Assembly (NCBI RefSeq): GCF_005925345.1
Contig: NZ_SSHJ01000040.1
Span: forward strand, 1-15,703
DNA length: 15,703 bases
From: Pedobacter ureilyticus
Lineage (GTDB): Bacteria > Bacteroidota > Bacteroidia > Sphingobacteriales > Sphingobacteriaceae
Reading direction: 5' to 3'
Shown: positions 1,333 through 15,592 of the stretch, one piece after another
How positions within the stretch are numbered: position 1 is the first letter of the stretch
How the letters are laid out: each line of letters starts with the position of its first letter
Translations under genes and position numbers: made by a program
The notes under the pieces: generated by a model
Databases searched by the model: none
The model's input: only the letters and a program-made list of their open reading frames with translations
Told to the model about the DNA's origin: nothing

Positions 1333-1529
1333 AAGTAACGGATTTGAACGGTTACGAAATTGAAGTAACCGACCTAAAAGAAGCTATCCGTATTGCGAAG
1401 CGAAATACAGGATATAGCCACGAGGACAAAAGTTTTTCAGACTTCGATAAAAGGCAAAATGCCTATTGGACGGATATACACAAGAAATTGATAGCAATCA
1501 AAAAACAATCTTCAACAATTAAAATTTAA
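1329..1529 (+). CDS. Small conserved-looking hypothetical protein in the PRTRC operon
   Basis: A 66-residue protein, not recognised. Its start is coupled to the preceding gene by a 4-base ATGA overlap, and it ends 5 bases before the next start, which supports real translation. The N-terminus (MKVTDLNGYEIEVTDLKEAI) looks like a beta hairpin followed by a helix; the C-terminus is Lys-rich. There is no membrane segment, no cysteine and no known motif. Being between the ferredoxin-fold protein and PRTRC E, it is probably co-translated with the cassette. Confidence 0.65.
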   Translation: MKVTDLNGYEIEVTDLKEAIRIAKRNTGYSHEDKSFSDFDKRQNAYWTDIHKKLIAIKKQSSTIKI

Positions 1530-1534
1530 GAACG

Positions 1535-2137: not shown

Positions 2138-2164
2138 AAGTGTTAACCCAAAAATTAGAAAGTT

Positions 2165-2383
2165 ATGTTATTAGCAACACAGTTAGAACGAGTTTTCATA
2201 CTCAAAGATAAAGGACAGGACATCAGGCTGACCGACCCCGAACCACGTTGGAGCGTGGAAGCCGTAATGAATTTTTACGCCAATATGTACCCGATTTTGA
2301 CAACTGCAAAAGCATCTGCACCACAGATAAAAGATGATGCAGTCGAGTACAAATTTGAGAGCGTAATGGGTACGAAAGGTTAA
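2165..2383 (+). CDS. PRTRC system protein C
   Basis: A 72-residue protein matching PRTRC protein C (TIGR03738-like), which is usually about 70 residues. It opens MLLATQLERVFILKDKGQDIRLTDP and continues with the conserved 'MNFYANMYPILTTA' region (about residues 35-49) and a C-terminal strand (VEYKFESVMGTKG). The original family name refers to resemblance to a short ThiS/UBL-like beta-grasp layout in some descriptions, but no terminal Gly-Gly is present here (it ends GTKG). The molecular role is unknown. It lies 27 bases after protein E and 17 bases before the next gene, in the same operon. Confidence 0.85.
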   Translation: MLLATQLERVFILKDKGQDIRLTDPEPRWSVEAVMNFYANMYPILTTAKASAPQIKDDAVEYKFESVMGTKG

Positions 2384-2400
2384 ACCAAAATTTTAAAACG

Positions 2401-3567: not shown

Positions 3568-4286
3568 ACACAACAACAGATATAACAAACCATTTTGGCA
3601 GTATGTACTATCCAAAATCCGCTTTGGTTTTCTATGAAACCAAAGGAACGGAAACCGATGTGTATGTGGAGCATTTTGATATGGATAGCAACGGAACGCC
3701 TATCAATGCCCACCCATTGACGGTAAAAGAAGCCAATGTATTGGCAAAAGCTTTAAAGACCGATGAAGAAAAGAACGCAGCTTTTTTAAAGCCAAAAGGA
3801 ATTTTGCCGACCAATATTCTGCATATCAATCCGAATGCTGAAAAAGGTACTGTGCTTTGGTACACCAAAGCACAGCAACGGAAACTGTATTTTGTGGAAA
3901 GTTTGGGCATACCCAACGGAATGGCACAAGTACCGCCAATGCTTTGGTTAGCGAACAAAAACAGTCTTACCGTATTTGCTTTGGCAAATGATAGAAGACC
4001 CACCGAGAAAACGCCATTGTATTACGCACCTTTCTTCAATATCTACGAAAAGGGCAATGTATGTATGGGTACGGTAAGTATTGATATTAAAAATTCTGCT
4101 TCGGTTGAGGAATTTATGCAAGCGTGGGAACATTATTTTTTCAATTCCTATTTCAGTCATTCATTGAGTGCAAATTTGACAAAAAAGAACATCGTAAGTC
4201 TATGGAAAGACCTTATTGGTACGGATAAACCCTTTCCAAAAGAAGTATTGAAAAAGAACAACAAAACCCTTAAAAATCTATTGTGA
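3564..4286 (+). CDS. PRTRC system protein B
   Basis: A 240-residue protein matching PRTRC protein B (TIGR03737-like). The N-terminal part (FGSMYYPKSALVFYET), 'LTVKEANVLAKAL', 'KGILPTNILHINPNAEKGTVLWYTKAQQRKLYFVESLGIPNG' (split across about residues 77-120), 'VPPMLWLANKNSLTVFAL' and 'PLYYAPFFNIYEKGNVCMGTV' are features of the family. It is tied to the previous gene by a 4-base overlap and to the ThiF gene by a TGATG overlap, so the three are translationally coupled. Function unknown; no catalytic residues can be named. Confidence 0.85.
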   Translation: MNTTTDITNHFGSMYYPKSALVFYETKGTETDVYVEHFDMDSNGTPINAHPLTVKEANVLAKALKTDEEKNAAFLKPKGILPTNILHINPNAEKGTVLWYTKAQQRKLYFVESLGIPNGMAQVPPMLWLANKNSLTVFALANDRRPTEKTPLYYAPFFNIYEKGNVCMGTVSIDIKNSASVEEFMQAWEHYFFNSYFSHSLSANLTKKNIVSLWKDLIGTDKPFPKEVLKKNNKTLKNLL

Positions 4287-5092
4287 TGAACACAGCAAAA
4301 ACAGCAATCCATTTTACAGACAATTATCTGCTCAATCCGACAAACCCGATTTCGATAAACCTTATCGGAGCAGGTGGCACAGGCTCAAAAGTATTGACCG
4401 CTTTAATGGAAATAAACGAAAGTTTGATAGCATTGGAACACGCAGGGTTGCAAGTCCGCCTTTGGGATGATGATGTTATCACGAGTGCCAATTTAGGCAG
4501 ACAACGATTTGCAGAAAGTGAAACAGGATTGTACAAATCCGTTGCTTTAATCAATCGTTGCAACCGTTGGGCAGGTACAAATTGGAAAGCCGAAACGGTA
4601 AAATTTGAAAAGGACAATTTTGAAAGACCGCCCGAAAAAGCAAAGGCAATCATTACCATTACGTGTGTGGACAATGTACAGTCGAGGTTTGGCGTTGCTG
4701 AAATTCTTAAAGAAATAAGCTACCGCAGACACTACCAAGACGAGCCAAAATATTGGCTGGACTTTGGCAACAGCCGAGATATTGGACAAGTGCTACTATC
4801 TACTATCGGAGAGATAAAGCAACCCAATTCAGAGAAATACCAAACGGTGGCAAGCCTGCCATTTGTTACCGATGAATTTGGCGAATTACTGAAGCAATCC
4901 GAACAGGAAGACAACACGCCAAGTTGCTCACTTGCAGAAGCATTGGAACACCAGGATTTGTTTATCAATTCATCATTAACACAAATGGGGTGTTCTTTGC
5001 TATGGAACTTGTTCCGCAGGGGAATGACCGAATACAAAGGATTTTTTCACAACCTGAAAGATTTCCGCACCCACCCGATAAAAGTTGCCTAA
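4286..5092 (+). CDS. PRTRC system ThiF family protein (E1-like fold)
   Basis: A 268-residue Rossmann-type E1-like protein. The nucleotide-binding loop GAGGTGS starts at residue 28, and the E1 signature WDDDVITSANLGRQRF follows (Asp61-63, Asn69, Arg72, Gln73). These are the residues that bind ATP-Mg and activate a C-terminal carboxylate in ThiF/MoeB/Uba proteins. A C-terminal candidate active cysteine lies in the DNTPSCSLAEAL segment. I chose the ATG at 4286, which shares its A with the TGA of protein B (TGATG coupling), rather than the GTG one codon earlier. It is the last gene of the PRTRC operon and is followed by a hairpin. The partner that would be adenylated is unknown. Confidence 0.9.
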   Translation: MNTAKTAIHFTDNYLLNPTNPISINLIGAGGTGSKVLTALMEINESLIALEHAGLQVRLWDDDVITSANLGRQRFAESETGLYKSVALINRCNRWAGTNWKAETVKFEKDNFERPPEKAKAIITITCVDNVQSRFGVAEILKEISYRRHYQDEPKYWLDFGNSRDIGQVLLSTIGEIKQPNSEKYQTVASLPFVTDEFGELLKQSEQEDNTPSCSLAEALEHQDLFINSSLTQMGCSLLWNLFRRGMTEYKGFFHNLKDFRTHPIKVA

Positions 5093-5108
5093 AAGCCTAA
5101 GTCGGCGG

Positions 5109-5151
5109 GCAAAAATGCAATTCCTCGCTTCGGTCGGAAACGCATTTTTGC
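5109..5151 (+). terminator. Hairpin ending the PRTRC operon
   Basis: GCAAAAATGC (5109-5118) pairs perfectly with GCATTTTTGC (5142-5151). Inside it a second stem, TTCC (5121-5124)/GGAA (5136-5139), closes a GC-rich loop. It begins 17 bases after the ThiF stop. There is no T-run immediately after it, so it may be a terminator, an mRNA 3'-end stabiliser or a dispersed palindromic repeat. Confidence 0.6.
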
Positions 5152-5361
5152 GGTTTAAAGCGGATGCAACCACTTTGCCAAAATGCACCACTTCACAATT
5201 CCCTTTCTTCACATTTTACCAAACAGGTTGCGAGTTTTTTGCGTGGGATATTCATTATCCCATTTGTTGTATTTACCACTGACTTTTTTTTTTCCAGACT
5301 GCGACCAAAGAAAAGATTCTGTGTTGTGAAACAATTTTTTTTAGTTTTTTTTGGTGTTAAA
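5152..5361. other. Intergenic stretch without a gene; one more hairpin and T-tracts
   Basis: No convincing coding region is seen here: the open frames have no family features and poor protein-like composition. A 7-bp hairpin TGGGATA-ttcat-TATCCCA (5244-5262), followed by TTTGTTGTATTT, could act as a second weak terminator. Long T-tracts lie at about 5282-5292 and 5334-5352. The stretch probably contains the junction between the PRTRC backbone and the resistance cargo. Confidence 0.5.
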
Positions 5362-5392
5362 TTGTCTACAATAACTATAAATTGTACTTTTG
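5362..5392 (+). promoter_or_regulatory. Bacteroidota-type promoter for the SulP gene
   Basis: TTG at 5362-5364 and TACTTTTG at 5385-5392, separated by 20 bases, match the Bacteroidota consensus TTG-N17-23-TAnnTTTG exactly. Transcription should begin near 5398-5400, giving a leader of about 170 nt before the SulP start. Confidence 0.75.
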
Positions 5393-5401
5393 CACCACTC
5401 A

Positions 5402-5446
5402 ATGAAAAGAACAGTACAAATATCATCCCAAGTTACTCCGCCTTGA
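5402..5446 (+). CDS. Possible 14-residue leader peptide upstream of the SulP gene
   Basis: ATG at 5402, a few bases after the predicted transcription start, opens a 14-codon frame (MKRTVQISSQVTPP) ending in TGA at 5444-5446. The stop lies inside a small hairpin, GCCT (5440-5443)/AGGC (5451-5454). The position just downstream of the promoter and the pairing at the stop suggest a leader peptide, but a short frame like this can arise by chance and no run of a regulatory amino acid is present. Confidence 0.3.
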   Translation: MKRTVQISSQVTPP

Positions 5447-5497
5447 TCTTAGGCTAACTGTTATATTTCCCAATTTTAATTTATTGGCTTCTCTGTC

Positions 5498-5524
5498 GTA
5501 CCCGAAGGTTTTGCTTTCGTGTAC
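5498..5524 (+). promoter_or_regulatory. Leader hairpin upstream of the SulP gene
   Basis: GTACCCGAAGG (5498-5508) pairs with CTTTCGTGTAC (5514-5524): an 11-bp stem with one mismatch, one G-U pair and a 5-nt loop. It lies 44 bases before the SulP ATG, in the transcribed leader. The following bases (ATACTTTTCTATTTAC) are T-rich but not a clean T-run, so this may be an attenuator or only a structured 5' UTR. Confidence 0.45.
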
Positions 5525-5568
5525 ATACTTTTCTATTTACATTTTTACCACTTTAAACATAAATTTTT

Positions 5569-7104
5569 ATGCAGAAAATTATCAATTTGTTTGATTTCAA
5601 ACAGAAAATTAATTACAAAAACGAAATTCTTGCGGGTCTTGCGGTGGCTATGACCATGATACCTGAGTCTTTATCCTTTGCTATTCTGGCAGGGCTTTCG
5701 CCTTTGACAGGGCTTTATGCAGCTTTTTTAATGGGTATTGTTACTGCAATTTTGGGAGGCAGACCCGGAATGGTTTCTGGGGGAGCCGGAGCAACGGTAG
5801 TAGTACTTATCGCATTGGCAGCATCACACGGTGTGGAATATCTTTTTGCTGCGGTTATATTAGCAGGTGTACTGCAATTTTCAGTAGGAATTTTTAAACT
5901 GGGTAAATTTGTCCGCCTGATCCCACAACCAGTAATGTATGGTTTTTTAAACGGCCTTGCAGTAATCATTTTCATGGCACAGGTAGCTCAATTTAAAGTT
6001 GTAGAAAACGGGATAGAAGGTTGGATGCAGGGGCCGGCGCTTTATCTAATGGCTGGATTGACATTATTAACTATAGCCATCGTATTTATATTGCCAAAAT
6101 TTACAAAAGCGGTTCCTGCATCTTTAGTAGCAATAATAGTTGTCTTTGGTATTGTATATTTTTTCGGCATCGATACTAAAAAAGTTATTGATATCGCCTC
6201 TGTAGGAGGCTCTTTACCTTCATTTCACATCCCTTCTATTCCTTTTACTCTGGAAACATTGAAAATTATTTTCCCTTATGCCTTGGTAATGGCAGGGGTT
6301 GGATTGATTGAAAGTCTGTTAACGCTTAATATGGTTGATGAAATAACCAGCACAAAGGGACAATCTAACCGTGAGGCTGCGGCGCAAGGTATAGCCAATA
6401 TCACCAACGGTTTCTTCGGCGGAATGGGTGGATGTGCAATGGTTGCCCAAACTTTAGTGAATATCGGAGCTGGAGGAAGAGCCAGACTTTCTGCAATAGT
6501 TGCAGCTATAGCAATTTTATTAATCATTCTGGTTGCAGGTCCTGTAATCGAGCAAATTCCAATGGCGGCATTAGTCGGGGTGATGATGATGGTAGCTATA
6601 GGCACATTTGAGTGGGTCAGCTTTCGAATCATTAATAAAATGCCTCGTCACGATATTTTTATTGGTATGCTGGTAGCAGTTATAACTGTATTATTACACA
6701 ACTTAGCTTTAGCCGTTTTGATAGGTGTAGTTATTTCGGCTCTTGTATTTGCTTGGGAAAGTGCCAAACGAATACGTGCTAGAAAGTATGTAGATGAAGA
6801 TGGTGTAAAGCATTACGAAATTTTTGGCCCGCTTTTCTTTGGCTCTGCTATGGCATTTACCGAAAAATTTGATGTTAAAAACGATCCCGATGAGGTGATA
6901 ATAGATTTCAAGGAAAGCAAAGTTGTAGATATGTCCGCAATTGAAGCCTTGAATAAAATTACGGAGAAGTATCACAAGGAAGGTAAAAAACTACATTTAC
7001 GTCATTTAAGCCAAGATTGCAGGCAATTACTTAAAAATGCAGAAACAGTTATTGATGTGAATATTATTGAAGATCCTACCTACAAAGTAATGACTAATAA
7101 ATAG
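5569..7104 (+). CDS. SulP family inorganic anion transporter with STAS domain
   Basis: A 511-residue inner-membrane protein. The N-terminal region has the SulP signature (GLAVAMTMIPESLSFAILAGLSP then LTGLYAAFLMG, about residues 24-60), followed by many hydrophobic membrane segments to about residue 400 and a C-terminal cytoplasmic STAS domain (about 420-505) with the DMSAIEAL motif. SulP proteins move sulfate, bicarbonate or other anions; short bacterial forms of this layout are often annotated as sulfate permeases. The substrate cannot be decided from sequence. It has its own promoter and leader and a strong hairpin after the stop, so it is a single-gene unit next to the arsenic operon. Its presence beside chromate and arsenite transporters suggests oxyanion handling. 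Confidence 0.9.
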   Translation: MQKIINLFDFKQKINYKNEILAGLAVAMTMIPESLSFAILAGLSPLTGLYAAFLMGIVTAILGGRPGMVSGGAGATVVVLIALAASHGVEYLFAAVILAGVLQFSVGIFKLGKFVRLIPQPVMYGFLNGLAVIIFMAQVAQFKVVENGIEGWMQGPALYLMAGLTLLTIAIVFILPKFTKAVPASLVAIIVVFGIVYFFGIDTKKVIDIASVGGSLPSFHIPSIPFTLETLKIIFPYALVMAGVGLIESLLTLNMVDEITSTKGQSNREAAAQGIANITNGFFGGMGGCAMVAQTLVNIGAGGRARLSAIVAAIAILLIILVAGPVIEQIPMAALVGVMMMVAIGTFEWVSFRIINKMPRHDIFIGMLVAVITVLLHNLALAVLIGVVISALVFAWESAKRIRARKYVDEDGVKHYEIFGPLFFGSAMAFTEKFDVKNDPDEVIIDFKESKVVDMSAIEALNKITEKYHKEGKKLHLRHLSQDCRQLLKNAETVIDVNIIEDPTYKVMTNK

Positions 7105-7135
7105 CATTGGATTATACAAGTTTAATATTACAACT

Positions 7136-7166
7136 ACAGCAATAATTTTTTAAAAATTATTGCTGT
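7136..7166 (+). terminator. Terminator of the SulP gene
   Basis: ACAGCAATAATTTTT (7136-7150) is the exact reverse complement of AAAAATTATTGCTGT (7152-7166). In RNA this gives a long perfect stem with a T/A-rich tip, about 30 bases after the SulP stop, followed by TTAAATTTATT. The A/T symmetry would let it work on either strand. Confidence 0.75.
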
Positions 7167-7194
7167 TTAAATTTATTATCGTAATATTGCGATA
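7160..7194 (+). promoter_or_regulatory. arsR promoter with ArsR-type operator (box 1)
   Basis: TATCGTAATATTGCGATA (7177-7194) is a palindrome except for one base pair, of the kind bound by ArsR/SmtB dimers. A promoter TTG (7160-7162)-N19-TAATATTG (7182-7189; seven of eight match TAnnTTTG) overlaps it, so a bound repressor would cover the -7 element. The TTG lies in the 3' arm of the preceding terminator. The start codon of arsR is 20 bases downstream. Confidence 0.7.
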
Positions 7195-7213
7195 TATTTA
7201 TTTTTTTAAACTG

Positions 7214-7543
7214 ATGGGTGTCACAAAAACCGAAATTTTTACAGAACAGCAGAACCATTTAGCTGGTATTTTAAAGGCACTGGCTCATCCTGCCCGTATA
7301 GCTATACTGCAACATATCATTAAACAAAATGCCTGCATCTGTAATGATCTGGTAGAAGAATTGGGATTGGCACAAGCGACAATTTCACAACACTTGAAAG
7401 AGCTGAAAAATATTGGTATCATTAAAGGAAATATAGAAGGAACTAGTGTATGTTACTGTATTAATGAAACAGTCTGGAATGAGGTTAAGAAGGAACTCAA
7501 TAGCTTTTTTGTCGAGAATGTAAATAGTAAAGAATGCTGTTAA
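7214..7543 (+). CDS. arsR: ArsR family metalloregulator
   Basis: A 109-residue winged-helix repressor. LAHPARIAILQHI (about residues 23-35) is the family's first conserved helix. ACICNDL carries Cys41 and Cys43, matching the CxC of the classical As(III) site in the ELCVCDL helix. QATISQHLKELKNIGII (about 54-70) is the recognition helix. Extra cysteines occur at 80 and 82 (VCYC) and the protein ends in Cys108-Cys109, both of which could join metal binding. The frame is open further upstream to 7160, but those 18 residues would read through the operator and are hydrophobic and A/T-driven, so the ATG at 7214 is preferred. It should repress its own operon until arsenite binds. Confidence 0.92.
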   Translation: MGVTKTEIFTEQQNHLAGILKALAHPARIAILQHIIKQNACICNDLVEELGLAQATISQHLKELKNIGIIKGNIEGTSVCYCINETVWNEVKKELNSFFVENVNSKECC

Positions 7544-7565
7544 GCGTTTTTTTTTAACACCAAAA

Positions 7566-7583
7566 CATCGTAACATTGCAATA
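7566..7583 (+). promoter_or_regulatory. Second ArsR-type box, upstream of the DUF6428 gene
   Basis: CATCGTAACATTGCAATA matches box 1 at 15 of 18 positions in the same orientation, and again has TAACATTG in the register of a -7 element. It lies in the 68-base gap between arsR and the DUF6428 gene, after a T-run at 7547-7555. It may be a second operator, possibly with an internal promoter, although no good TTG element stands upstream. Confidence 0.55.
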
Positions 7584-7611
7584 TAACATTTATTGAATTA
7601 ATATCAGAAAT

Positions 7612-8085
7612 ATGAAGTTATCAAAAATTAAAGAAATCCTGCCAACATTAGTAAATGTTGGATTTCAATTAGAAAACGGAACTTTAGTTCCAGAACATTT
7701 CCACGTTACCGAAGTGGGACAAATTACTAAAAACTTTATAGACTGTGGTGGCGTAATCCGGTCAGAAAAAGTTGTAAACTTCCAATTATGGAATGCGGAC
7801 GATTTCGAGCACAAATTAAAGCCAGTTAAACTATTAAACATCATCAAGCTATCCGAAGAAAAATTAGGTATTGAAGATGCGGAAATTGAGGTGGAATACC
7901 AAAGCGAAACTATTGGCAAGTATGATTTGGATTTCAACGGAGAGACATTTGTACTGAAAAATAAAACAACAGCCTGCTTGGCTCAAGATGCCTGCGGGAT
8001 TCCTTCAGATAAACAAAAGAAAAATTTGGCGGAACTGCCTGTAAATAATGCTAATGCTTGTACTCCAGGTGGCGGATGTTGTTAA
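7612..8085 (+). CDS. DUF6428 family protein (arsenic-island protein)
   Basis: A 157-residue soluble protein matching the DUF6428 family, commonly found beside arsR in Bacteroidota arsenic islands. It begins MKLSKIKEILPTLVNVGFQLENGTLVPEHFHVTEVG (split over residues 1-36), with His-Phe-His and the FIDCGG motif (Cys46). The C-terminal third has further cysteines (TACLAQDACG) and ends NACTPGGGCC, a glycine-cysteine tail that could bind As(III) or a metal. The PEHFHVTEVG and GG segments resemble a small cupin-like or beta-rich fold, but this is only an impression. Function is unknown. Twelve bases separate it from DoxX, so the genes are co-transcribed under the ArsR boxes. Confidence 0.8.
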   Translation: MKLSKIKEILPTLVNVGFQLENGTLVPEHFHVTEVGQITKNFIDCGGVIRSEKVVNFQLWNADDFEHKLKPVKLLNIIKLSEEKLGIEDAEIEVEYQSETIGKYDLDFNGETFVLKNKTTACLAQDACGIPSDKQKKNLAELPVNNANACTPGGGCC

Positions 8086-8097
8086 AATTGAATTTAT

Positions 8098-8529
8098 ATG
8101 TTTTCAAAAATCATTCATACAGATAATTCAAAGACAACAATCATAATCCGACTGATTGTTGGAGGTGTTTTTTTATCGGAGGGCATTCAGAAATTTCTAT
8201 TTCCTACTTTACGGGGAGCCGGGCGGTTTGAAAAAATTGGCTTGCCATCTCCTGAATTTCTTGGAAGTTTTGTAGGCATATTTGAAATCCTTTGCGGAGC
8301 ACTTATTTTGCTCGGGTTGCTTACAAGGTTAGCAAGTATTCCGCTCATCATCATTATGCTGGTTGCCATTGCCACGACCAAAACATCTATTTTGGCTAAT
8401 GAGGGTATTTGGGAATTGCTGCACGGTAGCCGTACGGATTGGGCGATGCTTTTGGGAAGTATGTTTTTGTTAATCAAAGGTGCAGGTAATTGGTCTATTG
8501 ATAAAATCGTAATGAGAAATGGAGCGTGA
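8098..8529 (+). CDS. DoxX family membrane protein
   Basis: A 143-residue protein with four predicted membrane helices. IIIRLIVGGVFLSEGIQKFLFP (about residues 15-36) is the typical DoxX opening (Arg, then the G..F...G..K pattern), and FVGIFEILCGALILLGLLTRLASIPLIIIMLVAI follows (about 53-86). DoxX proteins are linked to thiosulfate:quinone oxidoreductase in archaea and to redox or thiol stress in bacteria; the specific role here is unknown. Its 3' end overlaps the chrA start by 11 bases, so the two are coupled. Confidence 0.88.
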   Translation: MFSKIIHTDNSKTTIIIRLIVGGVFLSEGIQKFLFPTLRGAGRFEKIGLPSPEFLGSFVGIFEILCGALILLGLLTRLASIPLIIIMLVAIATTKTSILANEGIWELLHGSRTDWAMLLGSMFLLIKGAGNWSIDKIVMRNGA

Positions 8530-9646
8530 TATTCAAATAAAGGAAATTGCCAAGCTCTTTCTCAAGCTTGGTTTTATTGGCTTCGGAGGTCCCGCGGCTC
8601 ATATTGCTATGATGCAGCAGGAAGTTGTTGTCAAAAAGAAATGGATGAGCGAACAGCATTTTTTGGATTTGTTGGGAGCTACTAATCTCATTCCTGGCCC
8701 CAACAGTACAGAAATGGCGATACACATCGGCTATGACAAAGGCAGTTGGAAAGGGTTAATTGTTGCGGGGTTATGCTTTATTTTACCTGCGGTTTTCATT
8801 ACCGGGATATTTGCATGGTTGTATCAGCAATACGGACAATTGCCCGAAGTACAGCCCTTTATTTACGGTATCAAACCTGCAATCATCGCTATTATCATAG
8901 GAGCTGTTTTTCCATTAGCAAAGAAATCTGTCAAGTCCACATTCTTGGCGGTTGTAGGTATTCTTGTTTTGGTACTGTCATTATTCGGCATTAGTGAAAT
9001 CTATTTGATGTTTGGAGCGGGATTGCTGGCAATGGGTTTGTATTCTATTCAGAGCAAAAGAAATACGCTCCAAAGTTTTATCCCGCTCGCATTCTTACAA
9101 ATCGCACAAAGCCCCTTACTCTCTGAAACAAATACCAAATTATTTTGGATATTCCTGAAAATTGGTGCTATCCTCTATGGAAGTGGTTATGTTCTTTTCG
9201 CCTTTTTAGATACGGAGTTAGTTGCAACGGGCTTACTCACCCGGCAGCAATTAATGGATGCTATTGCTGTTGGACAGTTTACCCCAGGTCCTGTTTTTTC
9301 TTCAGTTACGTTTATTGGCTATCAAATCAACGGACTATCCGGAGCAGTTATTTCTACGATTGCTATTTTTCTGCCGTCGTTTATTTTAGTAGCATTGCTA
9401 AATCCCTTGATGAAAAAAATGCGCCAATCTAAAGGACTGTCCATTTTTCTCGATGCGGTCAATGTGGCATCTGTTGCAATCATAGTCGCTATTTGTCTTA
9501 CAATGGGCAAAGAAACTATTACTGATTGGCGGACGATATTAATTGCAATGATAAGTGCGATCGTAGTTTTCAAATTCAAAAAAATAAATAGTGCCTTTGT
9601 GGTTATTGGAGGAGCATTATTAGGGTATTTATTTAATCTTATCTAA
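8519..9646 (+). CDS. chrA: Chromate efflux transporter ChrA (CHR family)
   Basis: A 375-residue membrane protein with two homologous CHR halves. The first has FLKLGFIGFGGPAAHIAMMQQEVV (about residues 11-34) and NLIPGPNSTEMAIHIGY (about 55-71). The second has FLKIGAILYGSGYVLFAFL (about 210-228), then AVGQFTPGPVFSSVTFIGYQI (about 249-269). The GFGGP and PGPN/TPGP motifs in each half are the CHR family hallmarks. The protein exports chromate, probably by proton exchange, and full length fits a long-chain bidomain ChrA. It is translationally coupled to DoxX and sits inside the ArsR-led operon rather than with a ChrB regulator. The substrate could be another oxyanion. Confidence 0.9.
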   Translation: MERDIQIKEIAKLFLKLGFIGFGGPAAHIAMMQQEVVVKKKWMSEQHFLDLLGATNLIPGPNSTEMAIHIGYDKGSWKGLIVAGLCFILPAVFITGIFAWLYQQYGQLPEVQPFIYGIKPAIIAIIIGAVFPLAKKSVKSTFLAVVGILVLVLSLFGISEIYLMFGAGLLAMGLYSIQSKRNTLQSFIPLAFLQIAQSPLLSETNTKLFWIFLKIGAILYGSGYVLFAFLDTELVATGLLTRQQLMDAIAVGQFTPGPVFSSVTFIGYQINGLSGAVISTIAIFLPSFILVALLNPLMKKMRQSKGLSIFLDAVNVASVAIIVAICLTMGKETITDWRTILIAMISAIVVFKFKKINSAFVVIGGALLGYLFNLI

Positions 9647-9689
9647 AGTTATCTTAAACAAAATATTTAAACAATAAAAATCAGACAAA

Positions 9690-10463
9690 ATGAAAATAGC
9701 ATTATTCAGTGATATTCACGCCAATTTACCTGCATTAGAAGCATTTTTTGAAGATGTTGAAAAAAGAAAACCAGACAGTATTTATTGTTTGGGCGATTTG
9801 GTGGGCTATAATATTTGGCCAAACGAAGTGGTAAACGAAATCCGTAAAAGGAGAATACCAACCATTGCCGGAAATTACGATTTTGGCATTGGCAGAATGA
9901 GCAACGAATGCGGTTGTGCCTACAAAACAGACAGTGAAAAAGATAACGGAAATATTTCTATTTCATTCACAAATTCTTTGATGAAAGATGAAGAAAGAGC
10001 GTATTTGCGTACACTTCCAGCCCATATCAAAGTAGAATTTCAACTGAATGAAGATAAATTGAATTTGCTTTTGGTACACGGAAGTCCGAGAAAAATAAAC
10101 GAATATCTTTTTGAAGACCGTGAGGAAAAAAGTATGCTTCGCATTATGGAGCAAGCCGATGCAGACATTATGTGCTTCGGACACACACACAAACCTTATC
10201 ACAGAGTTTTAAATTCGGGTATTGACGGTCAAAATCATTTCAGACACGCCATTAATATCGGTTCGGTTGGTAAACCGAAGGACAGCGATGTAAGAGGCGG
10301 TTATGTAATGCTTACGATTAATGAAAACAGTTCTGTGTTGGATAAAGATAGTATCAGTGTAGAATTTATACGCTTTGATTATGATATTGAAAGGGCTGCA
10401 AAAGCAGTTGAAGAAAGCATTTTACCAAACGAATACGCAGAAAATTTAAGAAGAGGTTACTAA
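9690..10463 (+). CDS. Calcineurin-like metallophosphoesterase
   Basis: A 257-residue cytoplasmic protein with the metal-binding motifs of the metallophosphoesterase fold in order: SDIHAN (Asp8, His10), LGDLVGY (Asp36), GNYD (Asn62, Asp64, in place of the usual GNHD), LLLVHGSP (one His) and CFGHTHKPY (two His), then NIGSVGKP. The layout is like YfcE/MJ0936-type phosphodiesterases, and the family member in this size class often ends in a C-terminal helix as here. The missing His of GNHD is a common variation in this subgroup. The substrate is unknown. It lies 43 bases after chrA and 16 before gcvH in the arsenic operon. Confidence 0.85.
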   Translation: MKIALFSDIHANLPALEAFFEDVEKRKPDSIYCLGDLVGYNIWPNEVVNEIRKRRIPTIAGNYDFGIGRMSNECGCAYKTDSEKDNGNISISFTNSLMKDEERAYLRTLPAHIKVEFQLNEDKLNLLLVHGSPRKINEYLFEDREEKSMLRIMEQADADIMCFGHTHKPYHRVLNSGIDGQNHFRHAINIGSVGKPKDSDVRGGYVMLTINENSSVLDKDSISVEFIRFDYDIERAAKAVEESILPNEYAENLRRGY

Positions 10464-10479
10464 TCTAAAATTTATAAAA

Positions 10480-10857
10480 ATGGAATTTCCAACCGATAGA
10501 AAGTATTCAAAAGAACATACCTGGATAAGCATACAGGACAACACAGGTACAATAGGCATTACAGAATTTGCGCAAAGTGAATTGGGCGAAATCGTATATG
10601 CGGATTTACCAAACGTTGGATATAGTTTTCAGCAGGACGAAGTATTCGGCTCTGTTGAAGCAGTTAAAACGGTCAGTGATTTATTTATGCCTGTATCGGG
10701 TAAAATCACTGAAACGAACGAACTACTTTTGAAAGCACCCACACTCATAAACGACAATCCTTATAAAGACGGTTGGATGATAAAAATTGAAATAAAAGAC
10801 ATTACAGAATTAGAAGACTTATTGACATCAAACCAATATAAAGAACTTACAAATTAG
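10480..10857 (+). CDS. gcvH: Glycine cleavage system H protein (lipoyl carrier)
   Basis: A 125-residue protein of normal H-protein length. [11 protein letters not shown] (residues 8-18), [25 protein letters not shown] strands (about 23-44), and the lipoylation hairpin [19 protein letters not shown] (56-74) with Lys63 as the lipoyl attachment site are all intact. [13 protein letters not shown] is the conserved C-terminal strand. In metabolism the H protein carries an aminomethyl group between GcvP, GcvT and Lpd, but none of those genes is in the window. Here it stands between a phosphoesterase and the acr3 gene (2-base gap to acr3), so it looks recruited to the arsenic operon. Reduced lipoyl groups are known to bind arsenite. 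Confidence 0.93.
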
Positions 10858-10859
10858 CC

Positions 10860-11900
10860 ATGCAACCAAAATTAAAATTCTTAGACAGATACCTTACTTT
10901 ATGGATATTCCTTGCAATGGCAATTGGCGTGGGTTTGGGTCATTTCTTTCCCAAAATCTCTAATGTTACCAACAGCTTATCTGTTGGCACTACCAATATT
11001 CCATTGGCAATAGGATTGATATTGATGATGTATCCACCCTTGGCAAAGGTTGATTATTCCTTATTGCCCAAAGCATTTAGAGATAAAAAAGTAATTGGCA
11101 TATCCTTATTGCTCAATTGGGTAATCGGCACGGTATTGATGTTTGGATTAGCGGTTTTGTTTTTACGTAACGAACCCGATTACATGACAGGCTTAATTCT
11201 TATCGGTTTGGCAAGATGTATTGCCATGGTCATCGTTTGGAGTGACTTAGCTAAAGCAAACAGAGAATATACAGCTATGTTAGTTGCATTAAACAGCATC
11301 TTCCAGATATTTACTTACAGCTTTTTAGTTTGGTTATTCATCAACGTATTACCTGCAAAATTAGGATTAGCCAATTTCAATGTAAGCGTATCCATGAAAG
11401 ATGTTACCGAAAGCGTATTGATATATTTGGGTATTCCATTCCTGGCAGGTTTTTTAAGCCGTTACTTCCTTATAAAATCAAAAGGTATAGAATGGTATAA
11501 CCGAAAATTCGTCCCCGCAATATCGCCAATTACCTTATACGCTTTATTGTTTACGATAGTATTAATGTTCAGCTTGAAAGGCGATAAAATACTGGAATTA
11601 CCAATGGATGTAGTAAAAGTAGCCATACCGCTAATCATCTATTTTGTGTTGATGTTTTTCGTGAGCTTCTTTATCAATAAATCTCTTAAAGTTCCTTACG
11701 ACAAAAACGCATCCATCGCATTTACAGCCACAGGAAACAATTTTGAATTGGCAATAGCCGTAGCAATATCGATTTTCGGCATTCATTCGCCACAGGCATT
11801 TGTAGGTGTTATCGGCCCACTGGTAGAAGTTCCTGTACTCATATTATTGGTAAGGGCAAGTTTATGGCTAAAGGAGAAATATTATAGTAAAAAAGACTGA
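10860..11900 (+). CDS. acr3: ACR3 family arsenite efflux transporter
   Basis: A 346-residue membrane protein with about ten hydrophobic segments. [36 protein letters not shown] (split across about residues 117-152) contains the conserved cysteine and the 'MV.VW..LA' pattern of ACR3. [21 protein letters not shown] (about 286-306) and [12 protein letters not shown] (about 322-333) are C-terminal hallmarks. ACR3 exports As(III) at the cytoplasmic membrane, driven by the proton gradient. It starts 2 bases after gcvH, is last in the ArsR-led operon, and its stop lies within a shared terminator. No arsA is near, so it should work without an ATPase. Confidence 0.93.
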
Positions 11901-11917
11901 ATTTAAATTTCAGTCTT
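11893..11917. terminator. Bidirectional terminator shared by acr3 and nhaA
   Basis: AAGACTGAA (11893-11901) pairs with TTCAGTCTT (11909-11917) around a 7-nt loop. It contains the TGA of acr3 (11898-11900) and the TAA of the minus-strand nhaA (11903-11905). On the minus strand it is followed by six T's; on the plus strand by CTTACCCTTTCTT. It is therefore a better terminator for nhaA, weaker for acr3. Confidence 0.75.
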
Positions 11918-13090
11918 CTTACCCTTTCTTCTACTGGATAAATTCAAAATCACATATCCTAAGATACCCGCAATGAGTGATGTTATTAAAACAGATAGCT
12001 TGGCCTCTTCAATGAAAACCTGATTGTCAAATGAAAGCATAGATATAAATATGGACATTGTAAAACCTATTCCAGCTAATAATCCTAAGCCAATAATGTG
12101 AATAAGGTTACTGTTTGCAGGAAGTTGACCTATCCCTAATTTAGAACATATCAAAGAGGTTGCAACAATGCCAATGGGCTTACCAAAAATTAATCCCAGT
12201 GAAATACCTAAACCTAACGGGGAAGTCAGTCCTTCTATCATTTCCTGATGAATTGTAATATTTGTATTAGCGAATGCAAAAATGGGAATAATCAGAAAAT
12301 TTACCGGTTTTACAAGTGCATGTTCTAGTTTCTCTAACGGAGATTCAACTTCTGTATCATTGGTTGGCAAGGTCATAGCTACCAGTACACCTGCTATAGT
12401 GGCATGAATGCCAGAATGATGCACAAAATACCATACAAAAACTCCTGGTATTAGATATAGATAGGGATTTTTAACATTAAAACGGTTCATCAAAATCAGT
12501 ACTAGCATTCCAATTCCGGCATAGCCTAGATAGCCTAACTCAATTCCGGATGAATAGAAAATTGCAATGACTAAAATGGCAATCAAGTCATCCACAATCG
12601 CTAAAGCCGCTAAAAATATTTTTAAACTGGTTGGTACTCTTTTGTCTAACAGCGAAATTACGGCCAATGCAAAAGCAATATCCGTAGCCATAGGAATACC
12701 CCAGCCGGAAGCTGTTTCACTACCGGAATTAAAACTTACATAAATCAATGCGGGTACTACTGCTCCACCGATAGCAGCAAGGATAGGCAAAATAGCTTTC
12801 TTGGGAGAAGAGAGTTCTCCTTCAACAATTTCTCTTTTAATTTCCAGACCTACCAACAGAAAAAAGATTGCCATCAATCCGTCGTTGATCCACATACTTA
12901 CGGAATAATTGAGGTGTATGGCTTCATTTTCATACCCCAGCTTTGTGTCCAATAAATTTTGTAGCGGAGCGGCCATTGATGTATTTGCCACTATCATTGA
13001 AATCACTACGCATAAAAAAAGGAGGAAACCTCCAAAATTACTTGATTCAACAAAGTCTTTGAAAATCTTTAGATTGATTTTTTTCGGCAT
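11903..13090 (-). CDS. nhaA: Na+/H+ antiporter NhaA
   Basis: A 395-residue membrane protein of normal NhaA length. Hallmarks: WINDGLMAIFFLLVGLEIKREIVEGEL (about residues 67-93), GWGIPMATDIAFALAVISLLDKRVP (about 128-152), and ALAIVDDLIAILVIAIFYS (about 162-180) with the paired aspartates that carry protons and sodium. The C-terminal part has GKPIGI and GIGFTMSIFI. It imports protons in exchange for Na+ or Li+. It converges with acr3 and lies in a separate minus-strand unit, but an ArsR-like box covers its promoter region, so it may belong to the arsenic regulon. Confidence 0.93.
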   Translation of the reverse strand: MPKKINLKIFKDFVESSNFGGFLLFLCVVISMIVANTSMAAPLQNLLDTKLGYENEAIHLNYSVSMWINDGLMAIFFLLVGLEIKREIVEGELSSPKKAILPILAAIGGAVVPALIYVSFNSGSETASGWGIPMATDIAFALAVISLLDKRVPTSLKIFLAALAIVDDLIAILVIAIFYSSGIELGYLGYAGIGMLVLILMNRFNVKNPYLYLIPGVFVWYFVHHSGIHATIAGVLVAMTLPTNDTEVESPLEKLEHALVKPVNFLIIPIFAFANTNITIHQEMIEGLTSPLGLGISLGLIFGKPIGIVATSLICSKLGIGQLPANSNLIHIIGLGLLAGIGFTMSIFISMLSFDNQVFIEEAKLSVLITSLIAGILGYVILNLSSRRKGKKTEI

Positions 13091-13110
13091 ATTTATCTGT
13101 AAAAATTAAA

Positions 13111-13149
13111 TATCGCAATATACGAATAATGTTGCGAATGAGCTAGCAA
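13111..13149 (-). promoter_or_regulatory. nhaA promoter region with ArsR-like box (box 3)
   Basis: Read on the minus strand, 13128-13111 gives TATTCGTATATTGCGATA; its last 11 bases are identical to box 1 of arsR and the left half-site TCGTA is shifted by one base. A further TTCGCA half-site lies just upstream (13132-13138 region). The likely -7 element (TATATTG, 13122-13116) is inside the box, and a TTG lies at 13149-13147 (24-base spacing, somewhat long). The nhaA ATG is 20 bases downstream of the box, the same distance as for arsR. Confidence 0.55.
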
Positions 13150-13216
13150 AAGGGATAATTACTGCTTAAATTACAGAATAAGTTTTTTCCCATTATGAAG
13201 AATATGGCTGAAATAA

Positions 13217-13232
13217 AACTTATTAATAAGTT
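13217..13232 (-). terminator. Palindrome after the receiver-domain gene
   Basis: AACTTATTAATAAGTT is a perfect 16-bp palindrome starting 17 bases after the minus-strand stop at 13249. On the minus strand it is followed by TTATTTC. It is A/T-rich and weak, so it is only a possible terminator. Confidence 0.35.
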
Positions 13233-13248
13233 AGTAGAAGGAATTACT

Positions 13249-13710
13249 TTATTCACTATGAAAATCATTATTAAAATATTCCTGCGCGATTTTTGCTACT
13301 CCCACACTAAAATATCTTCCGCCATTGATAACAACTTCAATGGCTTTCTTGAAATCGTCTGTATCGCTACCAATGAGCAAATAACTAGAAAAACCAATTT
13401 CAAAAAGAGGTTTTACGACTTTTTCAGCATCAATATCACTATGAGCAATAAGCTTTATGGTTGGATATTCTGTCCTTAATTCTTGAACCTGTGCCAGCAC
13501 ATTCTTGTCGTAAAAATCAAGGTCAATAATACAAACATAGGGAAGTTCATTCAATGAAAACAATTGTGATAGTCCATCTTTAATGCTTTCCGAACGAAAT
13601 AAGACTTCAGTTCCTGAAGCAATGAAATCATTGCAAATCAAATCTAAAATTGGGCTTTTATCATTGATAAAGGAGAGGGTGATTTTTTGTTGTGTTGTAC
13701 CAGATTCCAT
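13249..13710 (-). CDS. Stand-alone receiver (REC)-domain protein
   Basis: A 153-residue protein with the response-regulator receiver fold only: strand KITLSFINDKSP (9-20), strand YVCIIDLDFYDKN (58-70) with Asp63 (or Asp65) at the phosphoacceptor place, TIKLIAHSD with Ser in the switch position, and the C-terminal helices DDFKKAIEVVINGGRYFSV. The usual acidic pair of the first strand is reduced to one Asp17, and the conserved Lys near the end of the fifth strand is not apparent (SSYLLIGSD). No DNA-binding domain follows, although IxxGGRYFS resembles the linker of LuxR-type regulators, so it may be a C-terminally shortened member of that group. I chose ATG 13710 (MESGTTQQ); the 19 extra codons upstream read through leader hairpins. 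It has its own promoter and a long structured leader. Confidence 0.75.
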   Translation of the reverse strand: MESGTTQQKITLSFINDKSPILDLICNDFIASGTEVLFRSESIKDGLSQLFSLNELPYVCIIDLDFYDKNVLAQVQELRTEYPTIKLIAHSDIDAEKVVKPLFEIGFSSYLLIGSDTDDFKKAIEVVINGGRYFSVGVAKIAQEYFNNDFHSE

Positions 13711-13741
13711 AATATTGTCAGATTTTGAGTTAATGGAGTTT

Positions 13742-13915
13742 CCTGCACAAAAAGAAAGCGCAGGCAACTACACTTACCGCACATTGAGGTACTGGTATAC
13801 CCGACAACGAATAAGCGAGCGCCCACGCCTATGGCATGAGCGTTCTTCCTTATTGTCCCGTTGTCTAAAAATTACCAGTTTTCAATGTGGGACTTAAAGC
13901 AAAAACACTTTAAGT
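13742..13915 (-). ncRNA. Structured leader RNA of the receiver-domain gene
   Basis: On the minus strand, three structures lie between promoter and start codon. First, ACTTAAAG (13915-13908)/CTTTAAGT (13899-13892). Second, a long stacked hairpin: CACATTGA/TCAATGTG (13889-13882 with 13787-13780), ACTGGTA/TACCAGT (13879-13873 with 13797-13791), GACAACG/CGTTGTC (13865-13859 with 13809-13803), AATAAG/CTTATT (13854-13849 with 13815-13810), and an apical CGCTCATGCC-ATA-GGCGTGGGCG stem (13842-13820) of 10 bp. Third, CCTGC/GCAGG (13764-13742). The apical stem has two G-U pairs on the minus strand that become C-A mismatches on the plus strand, favouring a minus-strand RNA. It could be a riboswitch-like leader, a processed sRNA, or a DNA palindrome. 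Confidence 0.6.
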
Positions 13916-13934
13916 ATTTCTATATTTAATAAAG

Positions 13935-13965
13935 CAAATGTACGAATGTTACAGATTATATACAA
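13935..13965 (-). promoter_or_regulatory. Bacteroidota-type promoter of the receiver-domain gene
   Basis: On the minus strand, TTG (13965-13963) and TACATTTG (13942-13935) are 20 bases apart, an exact fit to TTG-N17-23-TAnnTTTG. Transcription should begin near 13930, giving a leader of about 220 nt before the ATG at 13710. Confidence 0.7.
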
Positions 13966-13990
13966 TTATGAACAAAGGGCAACAGCAATT

Positions 13991-14004
13991 TTGTAAATTT
14001 ACAA
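13991..14004. promoter_or_regulatory. 14-bp palindrome before the YoaK-family gene
   Basis: TTGTAAATTTACAA is a perfect palindrome 13 bases before the ATG at 14018. It could be an operator, but its A/T composition makes chance possible. No clear plus-strand promoter was found for the gene. Confidence 0.3.
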
Positions 14005-14017
14005 CAAAAGGAAGCAA

Positions 14018-14755
14018 ATGTTTAGACATAAAGGCAAAGGTCGTACTTATACACACAACCTAAAATTAGCCTCAATATTATCCGGTGTAGCAGGTGTCGT
14101 AAACATTACCGGTGTTTTAGAATTACATACGCTAACTACTAATGTAACAGGTCATTTTGCTTTTTTTTCTGAGGAACTTGTTTTAAGAAATTACAGAATG
14201 GCTTTTGCATATTTATTTTACATTTTGTTTTTTCTGTTTGGAGCGTTTGTTTCAAGTCTTATTATGGAGTGGGTTTCAAAATACAAACCACAAACACCTT
14301 ATATTATACCCATATTCCTTGAAATAATCATATTATTGGCGGTGAGTTTTTCAGCATTTTTACTACCGAATGAATATGCCAGGTTTTCAATTCTATTATC
14401 GTCAGCTCTACTTTTTTCTATGGGATTACAGAATGCATTGGTAACAAGGGTATCCCAATCGGTGGTAAGAACTACCCACCTGACGGGTTTGTTCACGGAT
14501 CTGGGAATAGAACTGTCACAGCTGTTCTTTTACAGAGATCGGCCAGAACGGATACAGTTGAATAAAAGTATATTCTTAAAGCTGGCAATCATCTGTTGTT
14601 TCTTTTTGGGTTGTATAATAGGTGGCTTTACTTATTCATATCTTGAATTAAGAACTCTTTTGCTTCCGGTAGGATTGTTATTTTTCGCTTTATGGTATGA
14701 CCGGTTATTGTTTCGGTACTATTATCTGAAAAGAAAGTTCAGAAACCATCATTGA
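14018..14755 (+). CDS. YoaK/DUF1275 family membrane protein
   Basis: A 245-residue membrane protein with about six hydrophobic segments. The DUF1275 features are near the N-terminus: LASILSGVAGVVNITGVLEL (about residues 18-37) and LTTNVTGHFAFFSEEL (about 39-54). They are followed by FLFGAFVSSLIMEW (about 72-85), the MGLQNALVTRVSQSVVRTTHLTGLFTDLGIELSQLFF stretch (split over about 135-171), in which the 'G.QNA...R......RTT..TG..TDLG' pattern is the family hallmark. The function is unknown. It is transcribed divergently from the receiver-domain gene and its 3' end overlaps the end of the minus-strand HTH gene by 17 bases. Confidence 0.85.
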   Translation: MFRHKGKGRTYTHNLKLASILSGVAGVVNITGVLELHTLTTNVTGHFAFFSEELVLRNYRMAFAYLFYILFFLFGAFVSSLIMEWVSKYKPQTPYIIPIFLEIIILLAVSFSAFLLPNEYARFSILLSSALLFSMGLQNALVTRVSQSVVRTTHLTGLFTDLGIELSQLFFYRDRPERIQLNKSIFLKLAIICCFFLGCIIGGFTYSYLELRTLLLPVGLLFFALWYDRLLFRYYYLKRKFRNHH

Positions 14756-15050
14756 CCGTATTTTTCCCGGTATAGTTCTCTTCCAGTATCCTTACCAGAT
14801 CTGTTTCCTTATAAATTATCTTACCTCCAATTTGTATAAATGGCAGGATATTATCATCACGATATTGCTGTAAAGTCCGTTTGCTGATATGTAACAGCTT
14901 GCAAATATCTTCGCCCGAAAGATATATCTCTCCGTTCATTACGGGACGGTAGTTTTTCAGTATTTCTTCGATACAGTTTCTCAACTGCATTATCATTTCC
15001 TGATGGACGACGATTTCATCAGCTTCATTCGTCAGTAAATTCATTGTCAT
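14739..15050 (-). CDS. Excisionase-like helix-turn-helix protein (HTH_17 type), copy 2
   Basis: A 103-residue protein. The N-terminal half is a probable coiled helix (IVVHQEMIMQLRNCIEEILKNY, about residues 13-34); the C-terminal half is a winged MerR/excisionase-type domain: YLSGEDICKLLHISKRTLQQYRDDNILPFIQIGGKIIYKETDLVRILEENY (about 43-93, the key residues being the SKRTLQQYR recognition helix and the IYK wing). Proteins like this come in pairs in Bacteroidota conjugative elements, where they regulate excision (Xis2c/Xis2d of CTnDOT are examples). It overlaps the end of the upstream paralogue by 26 bases, so it is translated from the same mRNA. Confidence 0.85.
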   Translation of the reverse strand: MTMNLLTNEADEIVVHQEMIMQLRNCIEEILKNYRPVMNGEIYLSGEDICKLLHISKRTLQQYRDDNILPFIQIGGKIIYKETDLVRILEENYTGKNTVNDGF

Positions 15051-15336
15051 TTGTATTATACGGCAGTCCGGCTTCGAGTAAAGCCTGTACGTCCGAGCGT
15101 TTGTAATAATTCTTGCGGTTCAGTTTGGAATAAGGCAATAAGCCTTTGTCCTTGTAGGTCTGCAAAGTCCGTTTGGTAATGTTCATCATCAAACACACTT
15201 CCTGGTTATCGAGCCATTGCTCTTCTTTGAAAATCGGGGTGTATTTCCTTACAGCATTTTCGGTCATTTCCAAAAGTTCCCTTAGCTCATTTTTCATTCC
15301 GTCCAATGCGGATTTTTGTATTGCGATAACTTCCAT
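15025..15336 (-). CDS. Excisionase-like helix-turn-helix protein (HTH_17 type), copy 1
   Basis: A 103-residue paralogue of the next gene, with the same order: coiled N-terminal helix (LDGMKNELRELLEMTENAVRKY, about residues 11-32), then EEQWLDNQEVCLMMNITKRTLQTYKDKGLLPYSKLNRKNYYKRSDVQALLEAG (about 38-90; key parts are TKRTLQTYKDKG and the YYK wing). Both copies are exactly 103 residues and share the RTLQ.Y+D..LP pattern, which points to an old tandem duplication. It is the first gene of the pair; its promoter should lie in 15337-15455. Confidence 0.87.
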   Translation of the reverse strand: MEVIAIQKSALDGMKNELRELLEMTENAVRKYTPIFKEEQWLDNQEVCLMMNITKRTLQTYKDKGLLPYSKLNRKNYYKRSDVQALLEAGLPYNTNDNEFTDE

Positions 15337-15455
15337 TTTTTGCTCATTTTTTCTGTGGAAGTCGAAGATATTAAGGGGTGTTACAGGGTTGGAAAATGTA
15401 GTATTGATTGGCGTTGAAAGGTAGTGTTTGGCGTTTTACGTTTGCTACAAACGAA
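15337..15455 (-). promoter_or_regulatory. Upstream region of the HTH pair
   Basis: On the minus strand TACCTTTC (15423-15416) is a seven-of-eight match to TAnnTTTG, and TTG lies at 15450-15448, 24 bases upstream (slightly long). An inverted repeat CGTTTG-cta-CAAACG (15439-15453) overlaps that TTG and could be an operator for one of the HTH proteins. The rest of the stretch shows nothing recognisable. Confidence 0.35.
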
Positions 15456-15486
15456 AAATCGGATAACCTTTTGGGCTATCCGATTT
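15456..15486 (-). terminator. Terminator, better on the minus strand
   Basis: AAATCGGATA (15456-15465) pairs with TATCCGATTT (15477-15486), with an extra CC/GG pairing in the loop. On the minus strand the stem is followed by TTTTTCG, so it would stop transcripts coming from the right, before the HTH promoter. Confidence 0.65.
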
Positions 15487-15510
15487 ATTCAAAATATTGT
15501 TAGAAAAAAG

Positions 15511-15567
15511 TCAGTGTTGAGCAGGTTGCTCTGTCTTTACTTCCTGTTTTTCCTTATCCTTTTTCAT
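15511..15567 (-). CDS. Possible small or truncated minus-strand ORF
   Basis: ATG at 15567 opens an 18-codon Lys/Glu/Gln-rich frame (MKKDKEKQEVKTEQPAQH) ending at 15511, 25 bases before the terminator. The same frame is open upstream to a stop at 15628-15630, passing through the repeats at 15593-15626. The charged composition looks like the tail of a real protein whose front was replaced by an insertion, or like a tiny gene. No family can be named. Confidence 0.3.
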   Translation of the reverse strand: MKKDKEKQEVKTEQPAQH

Positions 15568-15592
15568 TTGGCTGTAAGTGTATATTTCGGAG

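Follow-up and report, generated by a model that had tools for sequence, protein, structure and literature searches.

A putative lipoyl carrier in ars operons of Bacteroidota points to a role of protein-bound lipoic acid in arsenic detoxification

The operon and its genomic setting

The stretch of DNA that was analysed, called the window in the following, comprises 15,703 nucleotides and forms part of contig 35 of the 4.98 Mb genome of Pedobacter ureilyticus. On a single strand (5569-11900) it carries genes for a SulP permease, ArsR, a DUF6428 protein, DoxX, a chromate transporter, a metallophosphoesterase, a GcvH-family protein and ACR3, and this run of genes is opposed by the gene of an NhaA antiporter. 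The gene of the ArsR/SmtB-family metalloregulator (7214..7543, on the + strand like the six genes that follow it) scores 41.5 bits with Pfam HTH_5 and 71.5 bits with NF033788 (cut-off 55); it starts at the ATG at 7214, the mechanically defined open reading frame beginning at a TTG at 7160. The DUF6428 protein (7612..8085; PF20001, 221 bits) has a C-terminal Cys-Cys and is an ars-operon companion that occurs in 33 of the 37 gcvH-bearing and 13 of the 20 gcvH-less rows that were scored. The DoxX-family membrane protein (8098..8529; PF07681, 68.4 bits) and the chromate transporter ChrA (8519..9646; TIGR00937, 320.7 bits, cut-off 171.7) are optional cargo of this version of the operon, each being encoded in 8 of the 37 scored gcvH-bearing rows. 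Then follow a Car1-type calcineurin-like metallophosphoesterase (9690..10463; PF12850, 76.6 bits), the operon-type GcvH, a putative lipoyl carrier (10480..10857), and the arsenite efflux transporter ACR3 (10860..11900), which scores at equivalog level with TIGR00832 (442.2 bits, cut-off 282.8). The first two of these genes are 16 bases apart, and the stop codon of gcvH, ending at 10857, leaves 2 bases before acr3.

An initial annotation of this DNA had described an intact GcvH with Lys63, 2 bases in front of acr3 and with an arsR gene upstream on the same strand, in a window devoid of gcvP, gcvT and lpd. Open reading frame coordinates and profile scores confirm this arrangement, and none of the three genes is found among the window genes scanned. 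The H protein was, in the strict sense wrongly, called fused into the operon, of which gcvH is a separate gene, and the gene directly upstream of it, for a CxC metallophosphoesterase of the arsenate reductase type, was not singled out.

The operon has been on the move. Positions 1406-15585 of the window, at least 14,180 bases that include the operon, recur with 99.93% identity in G1066, a genome that belongs to a different family, and the match begins where the fetched stretch of that genome begins and may extend further. The operon is flanked by PRTRC-type genes (1535-5092) and by two excisionase-like HTH genes (14739-15336), which, in combination with the near identity across families, suggests that it sits on a recently moved integrative element. 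Spread on known plasmids is unsupported, as none of the 162 matching records in a plasmid collection reached 60% identity.

The genes that an H protein normally serves are located elsewhere in the genome. A second gcvH, 51% identical to the operon GcvH at the protein level, lies on contig 51 together with gcvT, and gcvP lies on contig 1; lipA, lipB and two lpd genes scoring over the cut-off are present outside the window as well. The separate gcv set that the initial annotation had envisaged for operon-bearing genomes thus exists here, and gcvP, gcvT and lipA were found in all seven genomes checked, six of which are other carriers of an operon gcvH.

The operon-type GcvH protein

The protein of 125 amino acids encoded at 10480-10857 on the + strand scores 137.3 bits with Pfam GCV_H (PF01597, cut-off 22.2) and 144.2 bits with the whole-length family profile TIGR00527 (gcvH, cut-off 115.85). 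Its predicted lipoyl lysine, Lys63 (10666-10668), sits in the motif EAVKTVSD. As the initial annotation would lead one to expect, this lysine is invariant in H proteins linked to ars genes (32/32 rows), and it is likewise found in 93/93 unlinked rows and in each of the 120 database relatives listed; Ser66 and Asp67 are also kept in the operon protein. Position 14 (10519-10521), on the other hand, is Thr in the window protein and in 31 of the 32 linked rows, the exception being a Dyadobacter locus (L092), whereas it is Glu in 93/93 unlinked rows. Among the 120 listed database relatives, 116 have Thr and two have Glu at this position, and two are truncated. Glu12 is retained in the window protein. 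Cysteine is found neither there nor in any of the 32 linked rows. In these counts one locus is included twice among the linked rows (L040/L203), and unlinked, or housekeeping, means that no metallophosphoesterase gene was present in the fetched flank, which was often only 1.5 kb.

Molecular dynamics of the E. coli protein H indicated that Glu-12 and Glu-14 bond the amine of the aminomethyl-lipoate arm, according to PMC7733448. With Lys63 kept and Glu14 lost, the lipoyl arm appears to be retained while the glycine intermediate would be held less completely, so that the operon protein is a GcvH by descent but a doubtful one by function.

A tree of 74 GcvH rows unites 31 of the 32 linked rows with 4 database relatives in one clade (bootstrap 98, SH-aLRT 93) and 35 of the 36 unlinked rows in another (96/90); the linked Dyadobacter protein and a protein from Rhodothermaceae (L049) are placed outside both, on long branches. 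The tree samples about one in three of the unlinked rows, together with 4 of 20 rows taken from the database, and leaves out L041, L196 and L204, which have a stop inside gcvH, as well as L210, which is the same place as L117. The ars-linked H proteins thus have a clade of their own and do not group with housekeeping H proteins, an outcome on which the initial annotation had made its reading depend. A housekeeping gcvH that came to lie beside acr3 by chance is ruled out by this tree and by position 14.

The operon gcvH is under purifying selection, with a median dN/dS of 0.14 (155 pairs) as compared to 0.034 for the metallophosphoesterase gene (206 pairs) and 0.056 for acr3 (141 pairs), the pairs not being independent. 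Of 33 distinct loci, 31 have an open gcvH reading frame, and identity to the window protein goes down to 60% within the clade. The other two distinct loci have an in-frame TGA inside gcvH, at codon 15 in L196 and at codon 74 in L204 (same sequence as L041), with the reductase and acr3 frames open.

Recurrence of the linkage and gene order

The association of gcvH with acr3 and arsR, which would have lost its meaning if found only once, is recurrent. In the family of the window's genome, 5 of 301 genomes (the window's own included) encode a GcvH that is at least 98% identical and has the same gene order, and a sixth genome carries a 60% identical GcvH inside an ars operon (G066). In a further family, 18 of 246 genomes have matches at E<=1e-46 in 19 places, and in each of these a metallophosphoesterase gene precedes and an ACR3 gene follows gcvH; the locus of one member of this family, G1062, is identical with L040, from Soonwooa buanensis. 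The order of another carrier, G457, yielded that genome itself out of 248. A collection of named genomes gave 574 confirmed relatives, and 13 of the best 80 are linked. Eleven of these head that list, being all those there at 63% identity or more, and come from Sphingobacterium, Niabella, Soonwooa, Epilithonimonas and several metagenome-assembled genomes, including one of Ignavibacteriales; the other two are a Bacteroidetes metagenome-assembled genome (L050) and the Dyadobacter locus. A protein database contained 350 relatives at E<=1e-44 among 8000 candidates scored, and the 120 that were listed are 70-98% identical. Recurrence in the two families, in the named genomes and in the scored loci rules out a chance or single occurrence.

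Genes for the metallophosphoesterase, GcvH and ACR3 are all present in 37/37 scored rows (38 given), which represent 33 distinct loci since four were fetched twice (L034/L235, L039/L237, L040/L227 and L041/L228). Scoring of gene order excluded L236, where the contig begins inside the reductase gene, and L252, where the motif was not found, but included L036, of which the reductase has Phe at position 74; neighbours at other loci were labelled by ars-operon queries only. In each of the 37 rows gcvH lies 3' of the metallophosphoesterase gene on the same strand, mostly separated from it by no more than 20 bases or overlapping with it as open frames. The spacing is wider in L221 (65 bases) and L042 (427 bases), and in L211 and L092 a second metallophosphoesterase copy, without CxC, lies between the CxC copy and gcvH. 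Tandem metallophosphoesterases, one with Cys-Gly-Cys and one without, are present in L092, L115, L116, L118, L137 and L211, and in L115, L116 and L137 the cysteine-less copy is directly behind the other. The position of acr3 is less constant: it is downstream of gcvH in most rows, but upstream in four (L211, L043, L050 and L092), it is split into two frames in L033 and L037, and in L042, L043, L050, L092 and L117 the transporter is only 63-66% identical to that of the window. Pairwise distances of GcvH correlate with those of ACR3 (r 0.87) and of the reductase (r 0.80), and thus do not single out the reductase.

The reverse association is much looser. A metallophosphoesterase match at 1e-40 was found in 24 of 395 genomes sampled from the phylum, and one at 1e-80 in 30 of 395 genomes sampled from the class; gcvH is beside it in the same two genomes of both samples (G000 and G457), which share genomes. 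Operons with ACR3 but without gcvH are common in both samples. When 63 metallophosphoesterases are placed in a tree, the 32 with a neighbouring gcvH do not form one clade (5 changes; a single clade is rejected with p-AU 1e-78), and the starred branches force 2 changes, L211 being represented by its CxC copy. Since 31 of the 32 linked GcvHs do form one clade, one GcvH type joined, or stayed in, several reductase lineages.

The one type of ArsC sought was found within 6 kb in 0/37 gcvH-bearing as opposed to 5/20 gcvH-less rows, the rows being related; Fisher's test gives p 0.005 on 33 versus 20 of these related and hand-chosen loci. For this comparison 21 gcvH-less loci were chosen from the phylum and class samples instead of being drawn at random, ArsC was sought by one query, and thioredoxin by motif only. 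Such a contrast would follow if the gcvH-bearing operons relied mainly on the metallophosphoesterase as their reductase, for which it is a weak indication. The genome G000 possesses a second ars operon without gcvH (L216, G000:C50:83000-100000), with ArsC, ACR3 and both CxC and CxC-less metallophosphoesterases. In L114 (G570:C3), where the reductase is 91% identical to that of the window, ArsC-like and ArsN-like genes occupy the place of gcvH between the metallophosphoesterase gene and acr3.

A proposed lipoyl partner for a probable arsenate reductase

The metallophosphoesterase of the window contains Cys74-Gly-Cys76 (9909-9911 and 9915-9917), and both cysteines are invariant in 13 aligned proteins. 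The same two positions, Cys74 and Cys76, were reported to be essential in Car1, which acts as an As(V) reductase in Rufibacter tibetensis, and a Paraclostridium metallophosphoesterase is given as about 40% identical to Car1 in the same paper, where the legend of Figure 6 also names a thioredoxin family gene for the depicted operons (PMC12124457). The ars operons listed in the genome announcement of Mucilaginibacter gossypii P3 include two metallophosphoesterases described as uncharacterised, and no gcvH is listed. By its family and cysteines, the window metallophosphoesterase is a probable arsenate reductase. The cysteine pair of such an enzyme needs to be reduced again in every turnover.

Because the metallophosphoesterase gene precedes gcvH in all scored loci, whereas ACR3 is of a more divergent type in some and encoded upstream in four, the arsenate reductase, a partner not considered at first, is likelier than ACR3 to be what the lipoyl protein works with. 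According to PMC4486171, Ohr, a two-cysteine peroxidase, receives its electrons primarily from lipoylated proteins. Since a dihydrolipoyl group can thus reduce another two-cysteine enzyme, a lipoyl protein fed by dihydrolipoamide dehydrogenase (Lpd) and NADH would be a natural partner of the reductase. In the mechanism that we propose, Lpd and NADH would reduce a lipoyl arm presumed to be carried by Lys63, and the dihydrolipoyl arm would restore the Cys74-Cys76 thiols from the disulfide formed by each putative As(V) reduction; it may also accept the As(III) released, which ACR3 would then export. It seems likely to us that the operons encode a lipoyl carrier whose specialised task is the detoxification of arsenic. 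The narrower reading, of a GcvH-derived carrier that left glycine cleavage and became the dithiol partner of the adjoining Car1-type arsenate reductase, is advanced tentatively, with chances that we put slightly below even. The complete scheme, in which a mobile lipoyl carrier with a cavity remodelled at Glu14 powers the reductase by way of Lpd and NADH and also relays As(III) to ACR3, is more speculative still, and we regard it as possible, though doubtful in one or other of its parts.

Several observations count against an electron-donating role. Most genomes with the metallophosphoesterase have no adjacent gcvH, the distances to ACR3 give a slightly better fit, gcvH contains a TGA at two loci, and in L036 the reductase beside an open gcvH has Phe instead of Cys74. 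Furthermore, Car1 is reportedly coupled to thioredoxin, and a lipoyl donor would then not be strictly needed.

Other explanations have to be weighed against the same data. The initial annotation favoured an As(III) carrier, with a dihydrolipoyl arm that binds As(III) and passes it to ACR3; taken without any redox role, this seems unlikely to us but stays a serious rival. Tight binding of As(III) by dithiols is established chemistry, acr3 is present in 37/37 scored rows and mostly directly downstream, and the correlation of 0.87 is the one just mentioned as the better fit. What has shifted is the likelier partner, the constant neighbour being the metallophosphoesterase: the reductase gene separates the upstream acr3 from gcvH in four loci, gcvH stays behind the metallophosphoesterase gene in the five loci where the ACR3 is only 63-66% identical, acr3 is split at two others, and ACR3 operons do without gcvH in many sampled genomes. 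That gcvH is a passenger, carried along by a successful mobile arsenic operon that once captured it and of little or no use for resistance, is improbable. The 99.93% identity over at least 14.2 kb shared with a genome from another family, the many metallophosphoesterase genomes without adjacent gcvH and the stop inside gcvH in 2/33 distinct loci would all agree with it; against it stands the open frame of gcvH in 31/33 distinct loci at identities down to 60%, under purifying selection and in operons that differ in their layout and in the type of their ACR3.

The protein could also act as a decoy, an abundant arsenic-induced lipoyl protein that absorbs As(III) and shields the central lipoyl enzymes. 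Conservation of Lys63 and its surroundings is all that this would require, and it would fit the faster evolution of gcvH than of its neighbours (0.14 versus 0.034 and 0.056), but neither the unvarying position of gcvH after the reductase gene nor the many fixed residues specific to the clade are explained, and we consider this quite improbable. A spare H protein, which replaces an arsenic-poisoned housekeeping GcvH in glycine cleavage, is very improbable. It is true that the operon protein is full-length, scores above the TIGR00527 equivalog cut-off and keeps Lys63, Ser66 and Asp67, and that arsenite induces gcvH3 in Pseudomonas pseudoalcaligenes, which is connected to folate metabolism by the authors of that study (PMC10138600). 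This replacement, also suggested by the initial annotation, is disfavoured because Glu14 is lost (Thr in 31/32 linked rows) and a second gcvH is present in the genome; the separate clade also speaks against it, and a spare H protein would be as sensitive to As(III) as the housekeeping one.

Arsenite is notorious for poisoning lipoyl groups. If these operons indeed enlist such a group for arsenic resistance, a target of arsenite would have been turned into a tool of resistance, and lipoate would have acquired a new task next to carbon metabolism and sulfur oxidation. It would also account for a gene for "glycine cleavage" travelling on mobile arsenic islands, and would mean that automatic annotation, by TIGR00527 scores above the cut-off, misnames a whole clade. 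The change of Glu14 to Thr and the order of reductase gene and gcvH provide a simple signature for its recognition. Among open-licence PMC papers, no report of gcvH in an ars operon was found among the matches listed, by which its absence from the literature is unproven, and two surveys of ars genes or transporters contain no words beginning with "gcv" in their main text.

Comparison with known systems

The operon protein resembles a housekeeping GcvH in its full length, its family scores above the cut-off and the conservation of Lys63, Ser66 and Asp67, and differs from it by its own clade, by Thr14 (31/32) and by the location of its gene, which belongs to an ars operon and is remote from gcvP and gcvT. 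If it carried As(III) to ACR3 it would resemble ArsD, which delivers As(III) to an efflux system. ArsD, however, uses its own cysteines for arsenic binding, which the window protein lacks, and serves ArsA, for which no gene is found among the window genes scanned. As compared to Car1, of which the partner is reportedly thioredoxin, the reductase gene is followed here by that of a lipoyl protein. Both enzymes belong to the calcineurin-like family, possess Cys74 and Cys76 and are encoded beside acr3, as far as Car1 is described in PMC12124457.

A closer analogy for the carrier is LbpA, the lipoate-binding protein of the Hdr-like pathway of sulfur oxidation, which is also a GcvH-like lipoyl protein that was shifted to an inorganic task by operon linkage (PMC6067878). 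LbpA acts on sulfur instead of arsenic, and the same paper describes two conserved cysteines near its N- and C-terminus, with some archaeal exceptions, that are absent from GcvH. Membership of the LbpA group is ruled out for the operon proteins, as 0/32 linked rows have a cysteine, and neither hdr-like genes nor a lipoate ligase gene are found among the window genes scanned. For the proposed reaction the nearest parallel is Ohr with Lpd and SucB, where a lipoylated protein likewise reduces a two-cysteine enzyme (PMC4486171). The donor in that system is one of the subunits that make up a central dehydrogenase, whereas here it would be a dedicated operon protein, and the reduced enzymes are unrelated.

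A plasmid of Priestia megaterium (Bacillota; L188) has gcvH flanked on one side by a gene annotated as "arsenate reductase family protein" and on the other, at some distance, by a thioredoxin family gene, which is perhaps a parallel link between a lipoyl protein and thiol redox chemistry. What is new in the operons described here is the constant metallophosphoesterase gene in front of gcvH and the Thr14 clade of operon GcvHs.
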